Shown piece by piece: positions 15,641 through 20,569 of a DNA stretch of 20,569 bases. Position 1 is the first letter of the stretch, and every line of letters begins with the position of its first letter. The stretch comes from a virus. The notes below the pieces were generated by a model. The model worked only from the letters and a program-made list of their open reading frames with translations, was not told the DNA's origin and searched no databases. Location: positions 1 through 20,569 of the IMG/VR virus record IMGVR_UViG_3300010401_000087, one strand, 5' to 3'. The position numbers and the translations under genes are program-made.

Positions 15641-17593
15641 CTACCAGGTGACGCCGGTCATCCACGCCACCGGCGCCGGCAGCCGCCGGATCGCCCAGTT
15701 CATCGGCAGGATCATGCGCAGCGCGAGCGAGTCGGTCTGGAACATCGAGCGCACCGGCGCAGCGACGACGTTCGGCGAGCCTGGCGTGCTGATTTGCAGC
15801 GGTGTCGTGTCCTCGAAGTGCAGCGTCGCCTGATCGCTGACATCGAACCGCGGCGTGTCGCCCTGCACCACCATCAGATCGTCGGCATTTATCAGGATCA
15901 CCATCCCGGCCGGCACCGTCGACGAGATCACGACCGGATAGCCCATCAGCCGGTTGCCGTTGATCTCGGCCTGGAACGGGAACTCGCCGCCGGCATTCTG
16001 GGTCAGCGAGATCGCGATCTGCTGCACCGGGTTCATGATCCACACCGGGTTGGACAGTGAGTTCATGCCCGCCAGGATGCCGACCAGCAGCTTGATGTCG
16101 CCGACCAGTGCGGTGAACCCGCCGCCCGCGGTCGGCGTCTGACCGGCGACACCGGCACGGATGCCAGCCGGGCGCACCGCGGTCGACGATGTGGCGTCGA
16201 TAAACACCGTATCCACCGCAACGCCGGTATCGTCCATGATCAACTGCCGCAGGATCGTCTCGATCTCGGGCGTCGAGTGCTCGGCGATCTCGCGGGTGTA
16301 GCTGATGATGACGGCCATCTTCTTGAGGCCGATCGTCACCGCCGTGAACGCCGCCTGCCGCACCGGGATCGGCGCGCCTTCGGCGACGAACGAGCCGGCG
16401 ATAGTCGGCGTCGCCTGCCGCGTCGGCATGCTGATCGAGGCGTTGCGGCCGAGCGTGATGTTCATGCCGCGCGACGCGACCGGCTGAAAGATCGACCCCG
16501 CCATCAGCGCGTTGAACCAGGCGCCTTGCCCGACAACGGCCAATTCGGCGGCCCAAGTGCTCGTCGTGGTGGTCGCCGGCGCCGTCGCGGCCCGCTGGCG
16601 CCACTCGAACACGCCCTTGGTCTGCTCGAAATCGCCATAGCTGCCGTAGCACTCGGCGAGCGCCACCTCGAGCGGCAAGCGCTTCACATAGGCAACGGCG
16701 GTTGCCACGAACTCGCGCAGCAGGTGCTCCTCGGGCGGAATCTCCTTGCGCTTCGGCTGCGCCCACGCCTTCGGTGCGCTCTGCGGCAGTTGCTCGCTCG
16801 GCCGGAACACCTGGATGCGCTCTTTCGGCACGGTGATCGGCGCGGCTTCGGAGCCGAGCGCCTTCTCAGCCTCGACCCAGGCGAAGATTTTGCCCTTCAC
16901 TTCGCTGATGCGCTGGGTGAGATCGGCTACCTTGTGCACCTCATCTGCATCCGGCAGGCTCGCCAACTGGTCTTGCAGCCCGACCACTTCCTGTTGGGCG
17001 GCTTCAATACGTTCGCTGTAGTTCATTTTCCTAATTCCTGATTTCGGGTCTCCATTGGCTATCCCGCCAGTGAGCCCGCGGGTCGTGGCGAGCTGATCCG
17101 GTTCGGCTATCCCGCCGAAGATCATCGCCCGAGTTTCGCGGGAGAGCCCGAGCGCCTTGGCGATCGCCAGGGCATTCGGATTTGCCGGCACCGAGACGAG
17201 CGAGCATTCGACCAGCTCGGCCTCGGTGAACCTGAGGCCGCCGGACTTACCGAGCGGCTCAGCCTTGTCGCTGTGAAATCCGACGCTGACGGCGCGCAGT
17301 ACGCCGGCCTTGACCGCGGTGTGTATCTCGCGCAGCCGGTCGGACACCGGGTCCATCAATTCGAGCGAGCCGGTGAGCTGACCCTTGCGGACACCGACAT
17401 CGCGCCACTTGCCGATCGGGAAGCCCGGGTTGTGCCCAAACAGCGCGATCGGGTTCGCGCGAAAGCGGTCCAACTGCCAGCCTTCCGGTTCGATCACGTC
17501 GCCCATGCGATCGACGCTGCCGTCCGACATGACAAATTCCAGCGGGTCATCCGCCGGCGGCGGCGCCGCAGACGCTTTCAGTCGCAATTGCAT
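15641..17593 (-). CDS. Prohead protease-major capsid protein fusion (HK97 type)
   Basis: A 650-residue fusion of two proteins that are separate in HK97. Residues 1-150 are an S21-type prohead protease: H54 in ALFGHN and S103 in RAVSVGFHS are the likely catalytic pair, and their 49-residue spacing equals that of H65 and S114 in HK97 gp4. The usual ELVECSLVSVPANPNA follows at 127-141. Residues ~151-189 are a linker. Residues 190-335 are a delta-like scaffold with a coiled coil (NYSERIEAAQQEVVGLQDQL). Residues ~345-650 are the HK97-fold capsid, with ISMPTRQATPTIAGSFVAEG, VIISYTREIAEHS, GYPVVIS and a C-terminal FQTDSLALRMILPMNW. The reading frame is continuous with no stop between parts. An internal ATG at 17026 could give capsid alone. 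Confidence 0.93.
   Translation of the reverse strand: MQLRLKASAAPPPADDPLEFVMSDGSVDRMGDVIEPEGWQLDRFRANPIALFGHNPGFPIGKWRDVGVRKGQLTGSLELMDPVSDRLREIHTAVKAGVLRAVSVGFHSDKAEPLGKSGGLRFTEAELVECSLVSVPANPNALAIAKALGLSRETRAMIFGGIAEPDQLATTRGLTGGIANGDPKSGIRKMNYSERIEAAQQEVVGLQDQLASLPDADEVHKVADLTQRISEVKGKIFAWVEAEKALGSEAAPITVPKERIQVFRPSEQLPQSAPKAWAQPKRKEIPPEEHLLREFVATAVAYVKRLPLEVALAECYGSYGDFEQTKGVFEWRQRAATAPATTTTSTWAAELAVVGQGAWFNALMAGSIFQPVASRGMNITLGRNASISMPTRQATPTIAGSFVAEGAPIPVRQAAFTAVTIGLKKMAVIISYTREIAEHSTPEIETILRQLIMDDTGVAVDTVFIDATSSTAVRPAGIRAGVAGQTPTAGGGFTALVGDIKLLVGILAGMNSLSNPVWIMNPVQQIAISLTQNAGGEFPFQAEINGNRLMGYPVVISSTVPAGMVILINADDLMVVQGDTPRFDVSDQATLHFEDTTPLQISTPGSPNVVAAPVRSMFQTDSLALRMILPMNWAIRRLPAPVAWMTGVTW
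17024..17039 (-). promoter_or_regulatory. Internal ribosome binding site and ATG for capsid-only product
   Basis: Inside the fusion gene, ATG at 17026-17024 (residue 190, MNYSER) is preceded by AGGA at 17039-17036, 9 bases away, and by a second AGGA at 17032-17029. It falls exactly where the linker ends and the delta-like coiled coil begins. Initiation here would give a 461-residue capsid protein without protease, allowing a high capsid-to-protease ratio. Confidence 0.55.
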
Positions 17594-17603
17594 GATGTAC
17601 CGC

Positions 17604-19172
17604 CTAAGCGATCATTGTGCGGTGGTTGAACCGCGGCTCCTCGAGGGGCGCGACGCCGGCCAGCATCGCGAGCGCGACCGCGCCATCGATGCGGCCCGCG
17701 GACTTGTCTTTCGCCAGCTTACGGTTGCCGGCCGGGTCGATCTTCACGGTGGCGTTGGCGAGGCACATCGACAGCACCGGATGCCCGCCATGCGCCAATC
17801 GGCCATTGAGTATCTCGGCCTCGAGCGCGCGCAGCGCCGGGCTCATGTCCTGGAAGCCCTGCCCAAATTCGGCGAAGTGCTCTTCGAGCTGTGCTTCGGT
17901 GAAACCCGCCTTGAGCAGCCACGGCCGCAAGTGCTTCCAGCCCCACCGATCAAAGCCGATCTTGCGGATGTCCAGCCGGTCGAACAGGCCGCGCAGATGC
18001 TCGGCGACATACTCGTAATCGACGCTCTTGCCCGGTGCGGCCAGCAGATGCCCGTCGCGGTGCCACAGATCGTAGGGCACCCGATCGGCCCGCGATTTCG
18101 CCGCCAATCCGTCGCCCGGCAGCCAGAATGTCGGGTGTATCTGCCACACCGAATCAACCCGCGCGCCGAGCACGAGCGCCGTCAGATCGGACACCGCCGA
18201 CAGGTCGAGGCCGCCATAAACCGGGTGCCCATCGAGCGGCAGCGGCTCGGCATTGCAGGCGATCCACAACTGGCGGCTGATGAACGGCGCCGACGCCTCG
18301 ACGCGCCGGTTGAGGATCAGGTTTTCGTATTCGCTCTGCCGGCTCGGCATGCGCTCGGCGTCGGCCGCCATGCCGAGCACTTCGGTGGCGTTGAGGAAAT
18401 CACCAAACGCCGGGTTGGCGGCGCGGATCGCCTCTTCGCCGAACGGGTGCAAATCCATCGGCGCGGTGTAGAGCGACACCACGACGCGCGGGTCGTGCGC
18501 CGCCAGGCCGTCGTCAATCAACACGCTGAGCAGGTCCGCATCGGTCGGCGCTTGCGTGCTGATCACGATCGACAGCGGCGCTTCCTGCGCGCCGGTGGCG
18601 GTTTCGAGCGCCTCATATAGCCGGCTGCGCGGCCCGCGGACTTGGCCGAGTTCATCGAAAACAACAAACACCGGGCTTAACCCAAACGCCGTCGTGGCCT
18701 CGGCGCTCAAGGCTCGGTAGAGCGTCTGCATTGTTGGACAGAACAATTCTTTCGCCGTGTCGCGGATAATGATGGCGCCGCCCTGACCGGCATCGAGAAA
18801 CGGGTTTAATCGGACGATCTTAGCGGCGAGGCTGAACAGCACGCCGGCTTGTTCCCGGCTCTGGGCCGCCGAGAAAAGCTGGCTATTCGGCCGCGCCTCG
18901 TCGCCACACAGGTGCAGCAGCAACAGGAATGCCGCCAGCGCCGTCTTGCCGTTCTTCCGGCCAAAACTGAGGATTGCGCGCCGGGTGCCGGCCGGGTTGT
19001 CATAGATGCGGCATATCTCCCGGCGCTGCCACTCGCGCAACCGGACCGGCCGCCCTACCAGCTTCCCTTCAGGAACCCGGCACCAATCCTCAATCCACTG
19101 GATGTTTGCTTCGCCCCGCGACGGCTCTTTCCCACGGGACGCGGATTTGCGAGATCGTTCGGGGGTTGCCAC
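17604..19172 (-). CDS. Terminase large subunit
   Basis: A 522-residue packaging motor and nuclease of the Terminase_1 type. It opens with the family signature (WIEDWCRVPEGKLVGRPVRL, REWQRREI). The ATPase domain has Walker A GRKNGKT at residues 71-77 and Walker B VFVVFDE at 168-174, with the catalytic Glu at 174. STQAPTDADLL at ~205-215 is the coupling region. The nuclease domain has likely metal-binding Asp residues at 323 (GGLDLS), 408 (IGFDRWG) and 496 (GRIDGAVAL). All key residues are present and the length is normal. The GTG at 19172 lies within the small-subunit gene, an 83-base overlap. No nearer start would leave the conserved N-terminus intact. Confidence 0.95.
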   Translation of the reverse strand: MATPERSRKSASRGKEPSRGEANIQWIEDWCRVPEGKLVGRPVRLREWQRREICRIYDNPAGTRRAILSFGRKNGKTALAAFLLLLHLCGDEARPNSQLFSAAQSREQAGVLFSLAAKIVRLNPFLDAGQGGAIIIRDTAKELFCPTMQTLYRALSAEATTAFGLSPVFVVFDELGQVRGPRSRLYEALETATGAQEAPLSIVISTQAPTDADLLSVLIDDGLAAHDPRVVVSLYTAPMDLHPFGEEAIRAANPAFGDFLNATEVLGMAADAERMPSRQSEYENLILNRRVEASAPFISRQLWIACNAEPLPLDGHPVYGGLDLSAVSDLTALVLGARVDSVWQIHPTFWLPGDGLAAKSRADRVPYDLWHRDGHLLAAPGKSVDYEYVAEHLRGLFDRLDIRKIGFDRWGWKHLRPWLLKAGFTEAQLEEHFAEFGQGFQDMSPALRALEAEILNGRLAHGGHPVLSMCLANATVKIDPAGNRKLAKDKSAGRIDGAVALAMLAGVAPLEEPRFNHRTMIA

Positions 19173-19530
19173 GATGAGTCTGTGTCGCTTGTTGGCTGAT
19201 CCGCATCGACGCCGCCAACGCCTTGAGCGCAGCGGATTCGTCTTTTTGGTATTTCAACAAATCGAAGTAAGTCACGAGATCGCCGGAATGCCGTTCGATC
19301 AACTCGGCGATCCGTTTTGCAGCGATAACATGCCGGCAGTATTGTGTCAGTAAAGGCGCGTTACCTGGAGTAAACCACCCTGCCTCCACCGATGAAGTCA
19401 CCGCAACCCATACCTCAACCTCTTCATCCGTCAATTCAGGCGGCGGACGCAGCCGATCGAGAACTTGAAGCTCCGCCGGCACGAAATCGACCAAAGCACG
19501 CGGCCCGCGCTTGCGTGGTGTTGTTTTCAT
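19090..19530 (-). CDS. Terminase small subunit, P27-like
   Basis: A 146-residue protein directly before the large subunit. It has the P27-family layout: a basic N-terminus (KTTPRKRGPRAL), PPPELTDEEVEVWVAVTSSVEAG, then GNAPLLTQYCRHVIAAKRIAELI, a YFDLLKYQKDESAALKALAASMRIS helix region, and a basic tail. This subunit recognises the packaging start in viral DNA and recruits the large subunit. It overlaps the large-subunit gene by 83 bases, more than other junctions here, so its last ~28 residues may be an extension unique to this phage. The ATG at 19530 has only a weak Shine-Dalgarno (GGG, ~10 bases away). The candidate packaging repeats lie about 100-160 bases upstream of its start. Confidence 0.85.
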   Translation of the reverse strand: MKTTPRKRGPRALVDFVPAELQVLDRLRPPPELTDEEVEVWVAVTSSVEAGWFTPGNAPLLTQYCRHVIAAKRIAELIERHSGDLVTYFDLLKYQKDESAALKALAASMRISQQATQTHRGNPRTISQIRVPWERAVAGRSKHPVD

Positions 19531-19559
19531 TCAGCAGCCCGAGAATCCACCAGTTTTTG

Positions 19560-19591
19560 AAAAAAGGCCACCAACGCCGGCTGTTACGGCG
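19560..19591 (-). terminator. Weak terminator-like hairpin and T-run
   Basis: In coding direction CGCCG and CGGCG (19591-19587, 19579-19575) can pair around a 7-base loop. A run of six T follows at 19565-19560, but 9 bases beyond the stem. The 5-bp stem and the gap make it a poor intrinsic terminator, and it would stand between the HNH and terminase genes. Confidence 0.2.
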
Positions 19592-19623
19592 CGCACCCCT
19601 GAATTCGACCCTCCCCCCCTGGG

Positions 19624-19635
19624 TAATGATCATTA
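19624..19635. repeat. 12-bp perfect palindrome
   Basis: TAATGATCATTA is fully self-complementary. It overlaps the first ATTAACACTC repeat upstream of the small terminase gene, so it may be part of the same protein-binding site. Confidence 0.55.
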
Positions 19636-19692
19636 ACACTCACACTATTAATCATTATTAACACTCACATTAATTAACAATGATTAACACTC
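19632..19692 (+). repeat. Phased direct repeats ATTAACACTC upstream of terS
   Basis: Three exact copies of ATTAACACTC lie at 19632-19641, 19657-19666 and 19683-19692, 25 and 26 bases apart. Two weaker copies begin at 19647 (ATTAATCATT) and 19673 (ATTAACAATG), giving steps of 15, 10, 16 and 10 bases. The last copy overlaps the stop codon of the HNH gene. Repeats of this type next to a small terminase gene fit multimeric binding by the small subunit, though a repressor or replication protein could also use them. Confidence 0.7.
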
Positions 19693-20079
19693 TGCTTTGT
19701 GCCAATGGTGGTTGGGGTCGAGCGGTTGGCCATTACTATCAAACCCTTTGGTGATCTCGATGCGTTGATGCGAACCCTTGCCATGTCCTTTCTCGGCATG
19801 GCTCTGGTTGTCACACCTACTGCATAGGCTTCTCAGGTTAGCCATGTCATAGGCGAGGTGTGGATGGCTGAGCCTTGGCCTGATGTGGTCTACCCTGGCC
19901 TGACCTGGGCCACTGACATCAGCGTTGCACTTGACGCAACGGTAGTGGTCACGCAGTAGCACAAGGCGGCGCACATAGCGCCATCGCTTCGAGTAGTAGA
20001 AGGGGGAGGGCTTCACGCTCCGCGCATGCCGCACCCCGATCTTACGCATCAGGGAGGGCTCGCTAAGTTTGCTATCCAC
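19684..20079 (-). CDS. HNH endonuclease
   Basis: A 131-residue zinc-finger HNH nuclease. A basic N-terminus leads to WRYVRRLVLLRDHYRCVKC (C48 and C51 begin the zinc knuckle), then RVDHIRP with the catalytic D64-H65, N81 in MANLRSLC, and CSRCDNQSH with C86 and C89. The position usually filled by His directly after the second cysteine pair is Asp here, with His at 94, so the third metal ligand may differ. HNH proteins of this size next to terminase take part in cos cutting and packaging in HK97-like phages. The GTG at 20079 has GAGG 10 bases upstream, and an ATG ten codons later is an alternative start. It follows the NusG-like gene by 18 bases. Confidence 0.88.
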   Translation of the reverse strand: MDSKLSEPSLMRKIGVRHARSVKPSPFYYSKRWRYVRRLVLLRDHYRCVKCNADVSGPGQARVDHIRPRLSHPHLAYDMANLRSLCSRCDNQSHAEKGHGKGSHQRIEITKGFDSNGQPLDPNHHWHKAEC

Positions 20080-20097: not shown

Positions 20098-20569
20098 TCA
20101 AGAGAAAACCACATGTAGCCGTTGCACCGGAACATTGGTTCGGATGGTGCGGCCGAGCATCAGCATCGAGACGGTGGCCTTGCCATCCGGGCTCAGCGCA
20201 TCGAGCACGCCGAGGATACGCTGGCCGAACGCGTCGACTTCGACGGCATCGCCGATGCTGAATTGCTGCCCGACCGTATCGAACTCCCGACTTCGTTCGC
20301 GGTCCATGATGTAGGCGACATCCTCATCCGAAAGTTTGGCCGGGATGCCGGGTTGCAGGCTCATCAATCCGACGACGCAGCCGATCGGCATAGCCGGCCA
20401 GCCGCGCCAGTCCTGCGCGAACAGCATTCGTGGAAATATCGGCCGCAGCACGGTCACAGCGCTCCGGCTGCGGCCATGCGGGTGGACGAGGCAACGGTAG
20501 CGCGGCAGGTAAACCCGGTATCCGGCGAGCCGCAGCGAGCGCTCGGCGGCGTCCTCGGCGGCCGGCCGC
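20098..20569 (-). CDS. NusG-like transcription factor (N-terminus outside window)
   Basis: The frame is open from the right edge to the stop at 20098, giving 156 visible residues. It matches the NusG layout: the visible N-terminal part has AAERSLRLAGYRVYLPRYRC, HPHGRSR and LRPIFPRMLFAQ, the NGN-domain pattern (L...G...Y.P......R.LFP.YLF). Then come GCVVGLMSLQPGIPAKLSDEDVAYIM (split) and a KOW-like domain with FSIGDAVEVDAFGQRILGVLDAL and MLMLGRTIRTNVPVQRLHVV. NusG-type proteins bind RNA polymerase and change pausing and termination. A phage copy before the terminase genes may let polymerase read through the long late operon. An internal GTG at 20457 is not needed, because the upstream codons clearly belong to the NGN domain. 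Confidence 0.85.
   Translation of the reverse strand, partial: RPAAEDAAERSLRLAGYRVYLPRYRCLVHPHGRSRSAVTVLRPIFPRMLFAQDWRGWPAMPIGCVVGLMSLQPGIPAKLSDEDVAYIMDRERSREFDTVGQQFSIGDAVEVDAFGQRILGVLDALSPDGKATVSMLMLGRTIRTNVPVQRLHVVFS

Follow-up and report, generated by a model that had tools for sequence, protein, structure and literature searches.

In HK97, in Rhizobium phage 16-3, and in PAJU2, the genome end lies just before the small terminase gene (terS). The small terminase protein (TerS) of HK97 binds one 15-bp site at +15 to +29 downstream of the cut, in which a critical C:G pair stands beside an A-tract, and the DNA is threaded through the channel of the TerS ring, not wrapped around the ring (PMC11331095). 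In 16-3, GGGGGAGGG is followed by 28 nt and then by CCGGCGTCGG, and these final ten bases carry the cohesive-end annotation. For Serratia phage OS31, coverage by reads is reported to start at nucleotide 19,032 (PMC7556043).

The window, an IMG/VR fragment of 20,569 bases, carries an HK97-like set of head and tail genes on its minus strand, and it was compared with contigs and records of relatives, referred to below by L- and G-numbers. The order on this strand is NusG-like gene, HNH gene, gap, terS, terL, protease-capsid fusion, and portal. The NusG-like antiterminator gene (20098..20568, minus strand) sits just upstream of HNH and is incomplete, being cut by the window end; it was assigned to PHROG 6386, transcription antiterminator (E 4e-6), and its product shows 94–97% identity to those of L213–L217 (97% in L213). 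The HNH endonuclease gene (19684..20079, minus strand) was recognized by Pfam HNH (E 3e-7), by PHROG 144 (E 1e-23), and by a phmmer match to the solved phage HNH 5h0m (E 8e-11); its product is 89–92% identical to those of L023–L025, and the gene is likely the equivalent of HK97 gp74. Downstream lie terS (19090..19530, minus strand; PHROG 12559, terminase small subunit, E 5e-28) and an HK97-type large terminase gene, terL (17604..19172, minus strand; PHROG 9, E 2e-105), whose product is 48% identical to TerL of HK97, 53% to that of 16-3, and 62% to that of PAJU2. At 15641–17593 the head protease and the major capsid protein are fused in a single 650-aa frame, as in PAJU2. Three features of an HK97-type packaging module were found: a TerL of HK97 type, a TerS modeled with the HK97 fold, and an HNH gene beside cos.

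The gap between HNH and terS was originally proposed to be a candidate packaging site made up of a G/C run and phased AT-rich repeats. The location and the participation of the G/C run are upheld here, but the AT-rich repeats are not retained as the TerS-binding site. The gap is almost certainly an HK97-type cos site, that is, a site of an already known kind, and the explanation as a whole, in which this cos site is accompanied by repeats that are a lineage-specific insertion outside cos function, is given a probability of about 0.85. On the minus strand, the gap reads GGGGGGGAGGG, 28 nt, CCGGCGTTGG, 40 nt, and ATG. The G-run GGGGGGGAGGG (19609..19619, minus strand), which forms the upstream element of the cos core, recurs in 20 or more relatives and in HK97, PAJU2, 16-3, and KpF5, where its distance from terS is similar. 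It is followed by a 28-nt spacer (TCGAATTC...GTAACAG; 19581..19608, minus strand), which is 28–30 nt long in the relatives that were measured and nearly the same in sequence in L213. The predicted cut (19571..19580, minus strand) would leave a 10-nt 3' overhang, CCGGCGTTGG, of which nine of the ten bases are identical to the annotated cohesive end CCGGCGTCGG of 16-3; its placement draws on this similarity, on the contig ends of relatives, and on the OS31 coverage. The exact position is inferred by homology to these relatives, and is uncertain by 1–2 nt. The G-run stands 38 nt from the cut both in the window and in 16-3 (annotated end), 39 nt in OS31 (read coverage), and 41 nt in HK97 (end of record), and the same arrangement of G-run, spacer, and cut was found in HK97, PAJU2, and KpF5 as well as in about 20 relatives from metagenomes or prophages. 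A cos profile made from 25 such regions, the window being left out, had its best window match at 19618–19551, above all of the 50 randomised windows used for comparison, although taken by itself the match is weak (E 3.9 for a search of about 1 Mb). Scanning with just the cos core gave mostly chance or distant places, none of them with repeats.

The ends of related contigs fall at the predicted cut from both sides. Right contig ends lie at one edge of the overhang in L023, L025, and L036, the first two stopping at ...GCCGAGCAG plus one base and the third at ...CGGAGAC, directly before the overhang. Left ends lie at the other edge in L148, L149, L150, G001, and G003, of which L148, L149, and L150 start 34–50 nt before terS. 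Both ends of G001 (35,597 bp) and of G003 (36,589 bp) are at cos, so that these two records most likely represent whole linear cos genomes. Among the 48 TerS-family contigs whose upstream flank is shortened by a contig end, 29 end 30–80 nt before terS, a clustering far outside a uniform null (the null is crude, and the contigs are not fully independent). For the relatives, fixed virion ends with a 10-nt 3' overhang are supported by these contig ends and by the match to the annotated end of 16-3; for the window such ends are predicted. The stop points of public metagenome contigs thereby map where the virion DNA of uncultivated HK97-type phages ends.

The TerS of the window has no detectable sequence similarity to HK97 TerS or to PDB chains. 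The first PDB matches of its predicted model (mean pLDDT 72) were HK97 TerS structures 8pop, a TerS-DNA complex, and 6z6e (Foldseek probability 1.00, E about 0.1, TM-score by target length 0.61–0.72), and the protein is accordingly modeled with the HK97 TerS fold. A candidate recognition site for this protein is the A-tract TTTTTTCAAAAACTGGTGG at +6 to +24 from the cut (19547..19565, minus strand), which is proposed from its conservation and from its position. Its parts AAAAACTGGnnG and AAAAACTGG are kept in the three contigs closest in TerS (L148, L149, and L150), and the site overlaps the +15 to +29 mapped in HK97, with an A-tract a few bases nearer the cut than that of HK97. L213 and G001/G003 have another TerS type and other sequences after the cut, so the post-cut stretch follows the TerS type and the pre-cut core does not. 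The cut was also seen to be a mosaic junction: the window at 19570/19571 and L213 at 1130–1160 share the pre-cut core and differ in TerS type and in the TerS-site stretch. In the mechanism that we propose, the 10-nt stretch at 19580–19571 would be cut with a stagger to give 3' overhangs, TerL with the help of HNH would cut cos at the start and at the end of packaging, and a ring-shaped TerS would recognize the A-tract at 19565–19547 after the cut. The AT-rich repeats, on the other side of the G-run, would come to lie at the right genome end that is packaged last; they are unneeded for cos in relatives, and might influence late transcription that enters terS or the shape of the DNA nearby.

The elements from which the original prediction was built are present. 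Three exact copies of ATTAACACTC lie at 19632, 19657, and 19683 (spacings of 25 and 26), and with degenerate copies starting at 19647 and 19673 the spacings become 15, 10, 16, and 10, as had been described. The 12-bp palindrome TAATGATCATTA can be read off the sequence at 19624–19635, where it is strand-neutral and belongs to the unit nearest the G-run, and the C-run CCCTCCCCCCCTGGG occupies 19609–19623. The array is better described as three tandem AT-rich units of 25–26 bp (19624..19699, minus strand), comprising 19624–19648, 19649–19673, and 19675–19699, which form a lineage-specific insertion separating HNH from the cos core. The minus-strand unit is roughly GAGTGTTAATnATnRTTAATnnTGT, and each unit has a dyad close to TTAATnATnATTAA. 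An A+T content of 71% sets the block apart from the genome, which has about 37% A+T. No further copy of ATTAACACTC, even with one mismatch, was found in the 20.6-kb window (0.21 matches expected by chance), and none of 500 dinucleotide shuffles contained any 10-mer in three exact copies within 100 bp. The dyad consensus, which was derived from the window sequence itself, was likewise reached in none of 500 shuffles. Two features of the initial description need to be qualified. The array does lie in the gap between HNH and terS, but it overlaps the end of HNH, whose stop codon (19684) falls inside the third unit. Half-sites spaced by 10 bp share one helix face within a unit, but the units are 25–26 bp, or about 2.4 helical turns, apart, and therefore they are not all on one face.

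The repeats are absent from the four nearest relatives, L213, L023, L024, and L025. In the last three, the stop codon of HNH, TAG, leads straight into the G-run. In L213, CCCAGGGGGGAGGGTCGAATTCA comes immediately after the stop TGA; it is the cos core of the window (87.5% identity over 56 bp) in front of a different TerS. Most relatives with HNH in front have a frame that ends within 16 nt of the G-run, and in most relatives the HNH stop codon abuts the G-run and so leaves no room for repeats. The contigs closest in TerS (L148 and L149, 78%) begin at the left end, and the absence of the repeats is therefore judged from other relatives. The repeats thus represent about 70 bp inserted in a single lineage, and are therefore dispensable for cos in its kin. 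In L026, L027, L028, and L029, relatives of the HNH gene are followed at once by a terS-like frame, which leaves no space for cos, so their cos must be elsewhere.

Where there is room in the slot upstream of the G-run, its contents vary. AT-rich symmetrical or repeated blocks of unrelated sequence occupy it in HK97, PAJU2, L160, and L163, and no such block was found in L154 and L166. In L163 (1000–1065), another phage of the TerS family, the G-run is preceded by three AT-rich repeats, ATGCAACxGTGA, each about 19 bp long and unrelated in sequence to those of the window. The enterobacterial HK97 group (L017, which is the HK97 right end, L226, L227, L228, L230, and L231) has a common AT-rich block, about AAATGAGAATGAATCGCATC, that immediately precedes the cos G-run. 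This block resembles a Fur box (15/19 in OS31). It is kept where the flanks or TerS differ, and in SaltyDalty, ST13-OXA48phi12.4, and OS31 it stands beside differing neighboring sequence; its persistence beside divergent neighbors hints that such blocks can be functional.

Two rival readings concern packaging itself. Many terS-proximal signals in phages are pac sites, and the terS-proximal location of the gap would also suit headful packaging from a pac site without fixed ends. The contigs of relatives, however, end at a single fixed place on both sides (the 29 of 48 contigs and the two genomes with both ends at cos), TerL and TerS are of HK97 type, and the overhang resembles that of 16-3, which together leave this reading the slimmest of chances. 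The original prediction itself took the phased repeats for sites that a ring-forming TerS would bind within the packaging signal; on this reading they would correspond to the R sites in lambda cosB and be contacted by an outer ring of DNA-binding domains. Their adjacency to cos and terS, their repetition, and the 10-bp distance between half-sites agree with such a role. However, they lie 53–128 nt upstream of the predicted cut, opposite the candidate TerS site and the side on which the HK97 fold is known to bind, and not downstream of the cut in the left end, where a lambda-type cosB has its TerS-binding repeats. They are also missing from L213, which has the same cos core, and from L145, L151, L157, L175, and L187, which have related TerS proteins, and TerS is predicted to adopt the HK97 fold, in which the DNA is threaded through the channel. 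A search among the repeats for an IHF site, as in lambda cosB, gave a best match of 7/9 that was equalled in 434 of 500 shuffles. The repeats are very likely not the TerS recognition site, TerS binding along them is improbable, and a direct packaging role of any sort has a low probability.

As to what the repeats are instead, the odds that they form a protein-binding array rather than neutral DNA are about even. Judged by their symmetry, they could be a tandem operator bound by a dimeric protein, and any function given to them, an operator role included, is putative. They may tentatively be viewed as a transcription-control region holding operators, and perhaps a promoter, for a host or phage regulator of terS and the head genes, a reading consistent with an AT-rich island in a GC-rich genome, with the tandem symmetrical dyads, and with the unrelated AT-rich repeats or dyads that L163, L160, PAJU2, and HK97 have in the same slot. 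Against it, no sigma-70-like promoter was found on either strand, matches to the IHF, CtrA, LexA, DnaA, and CRP/Fnr consensus sequences were no better than in shuffles, Fur was marginal in the window (shuffle p 0.035 and 0.07), and neither copies of the unit in eight related records nor a tandem GAGTGTTAAT pair in IMG/VR were found. Known regulator sites (the above as well as boxA and sigma-70) were set aside as weak or no better than shuffles, and a Fur-box reading was not adopted, being marginal for the window and stronger only in some enterobacterial phages. The array could also be neutral AT-rich DNA that grew by tandem duplication in a slot of free length, which somewhat under two chances in five would cover; its restriction to one lineage fits, as does the fact that the slot is empty or filled with small ORFs or unrelated sequence in different relatives, but the 10-mer is exact in all three units while the flanks between them vary, and AT-rich symmetrical blocks recur in the same slot of unrelated phages. 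The iteron-like direct repeats beside an AT-rich stretch recall a replication origin that is no part of cos, yet no initiator gene is nearby, relatives lack the array, and the DnaA box match is no better than chance, which makes an origin very improbable. When the repeats were looked for elsewhere, scans of IMG/VR for the exact pattern yielded no more than scattered single matches. An IMG/VR scan for dyad pairs found one unrelated AT-rich pair, blastn against phages and plasmids gave nothing meaningful for the repeats, and Rfam had no family match. A broader and unlikely idea is that the slot just upstream of the G-run in HK97-type cos sites takes up accessory AT-rich operator arrays peculiar to each lineage, such as the three 25-bp dyads of the window, unrelated arrays having been acquired by different phages. 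Such arrays would let a host or phage regulator modulate terS transcription or cos cutting.

With the gap read as an HK97-type cos site, a vague candidate packaging site becomes a cos site whose cut, overhang, and TerS site are predicted and can be tested. Comparison with other phages separates a core that is common across TerS types (the G-run, the 38–41-nt distance, and the cut) from a TerS-specific post-cut stretch, and exposes a variable slot with AT-rich contents in several phages, HK97 included. The likeness to lambda cosB (R1–R3 and an IHF site) consists in tandem repeated protein sites near the cos cut, the repeats of the window being only candidate sites; in lambda, however, the overhangs are 5' and the R sites are found downstream of the cut, whereas the repeats of the window lie upstream and its predicted overhang is 3'. 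L213 and G001/G003 (L023, L025) share with the window the HNH protein (90% in G001 and G003), the NusG-like protein (97% in L213), and a near-identical cos core (L213), but their HNH stop adjoins the G-run without repeats, and their TerS type and post-cut sequence are different. Phage 16-3 has no AT-rich repeats upstream of the G-run, but its 10-nt 3' overhang CCGGCGTCGG resembles the predicted CCGGCGTTGG, its G-run-to-cut distance of 38 nt is the same, and its TerL is 53% identical. HK97 (TerS gp1, TerL gp2, and HNH gp74) differs in a TerS without sequence similarity, in a TerS site farther from the cut than the candidate in the window, and in an AT-rich block of unrelated sequence without 25-bp tandem units. 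It shares with the window the order HNH-cos-terS-terL, the G-run about 40 nt before the cut, a GACCG-like cut region, the post-cut A-tract TerS site (a candidate in the window), the TerS fold (predicted in the window), and the presence of an AT-rich block upstream of the G-run.
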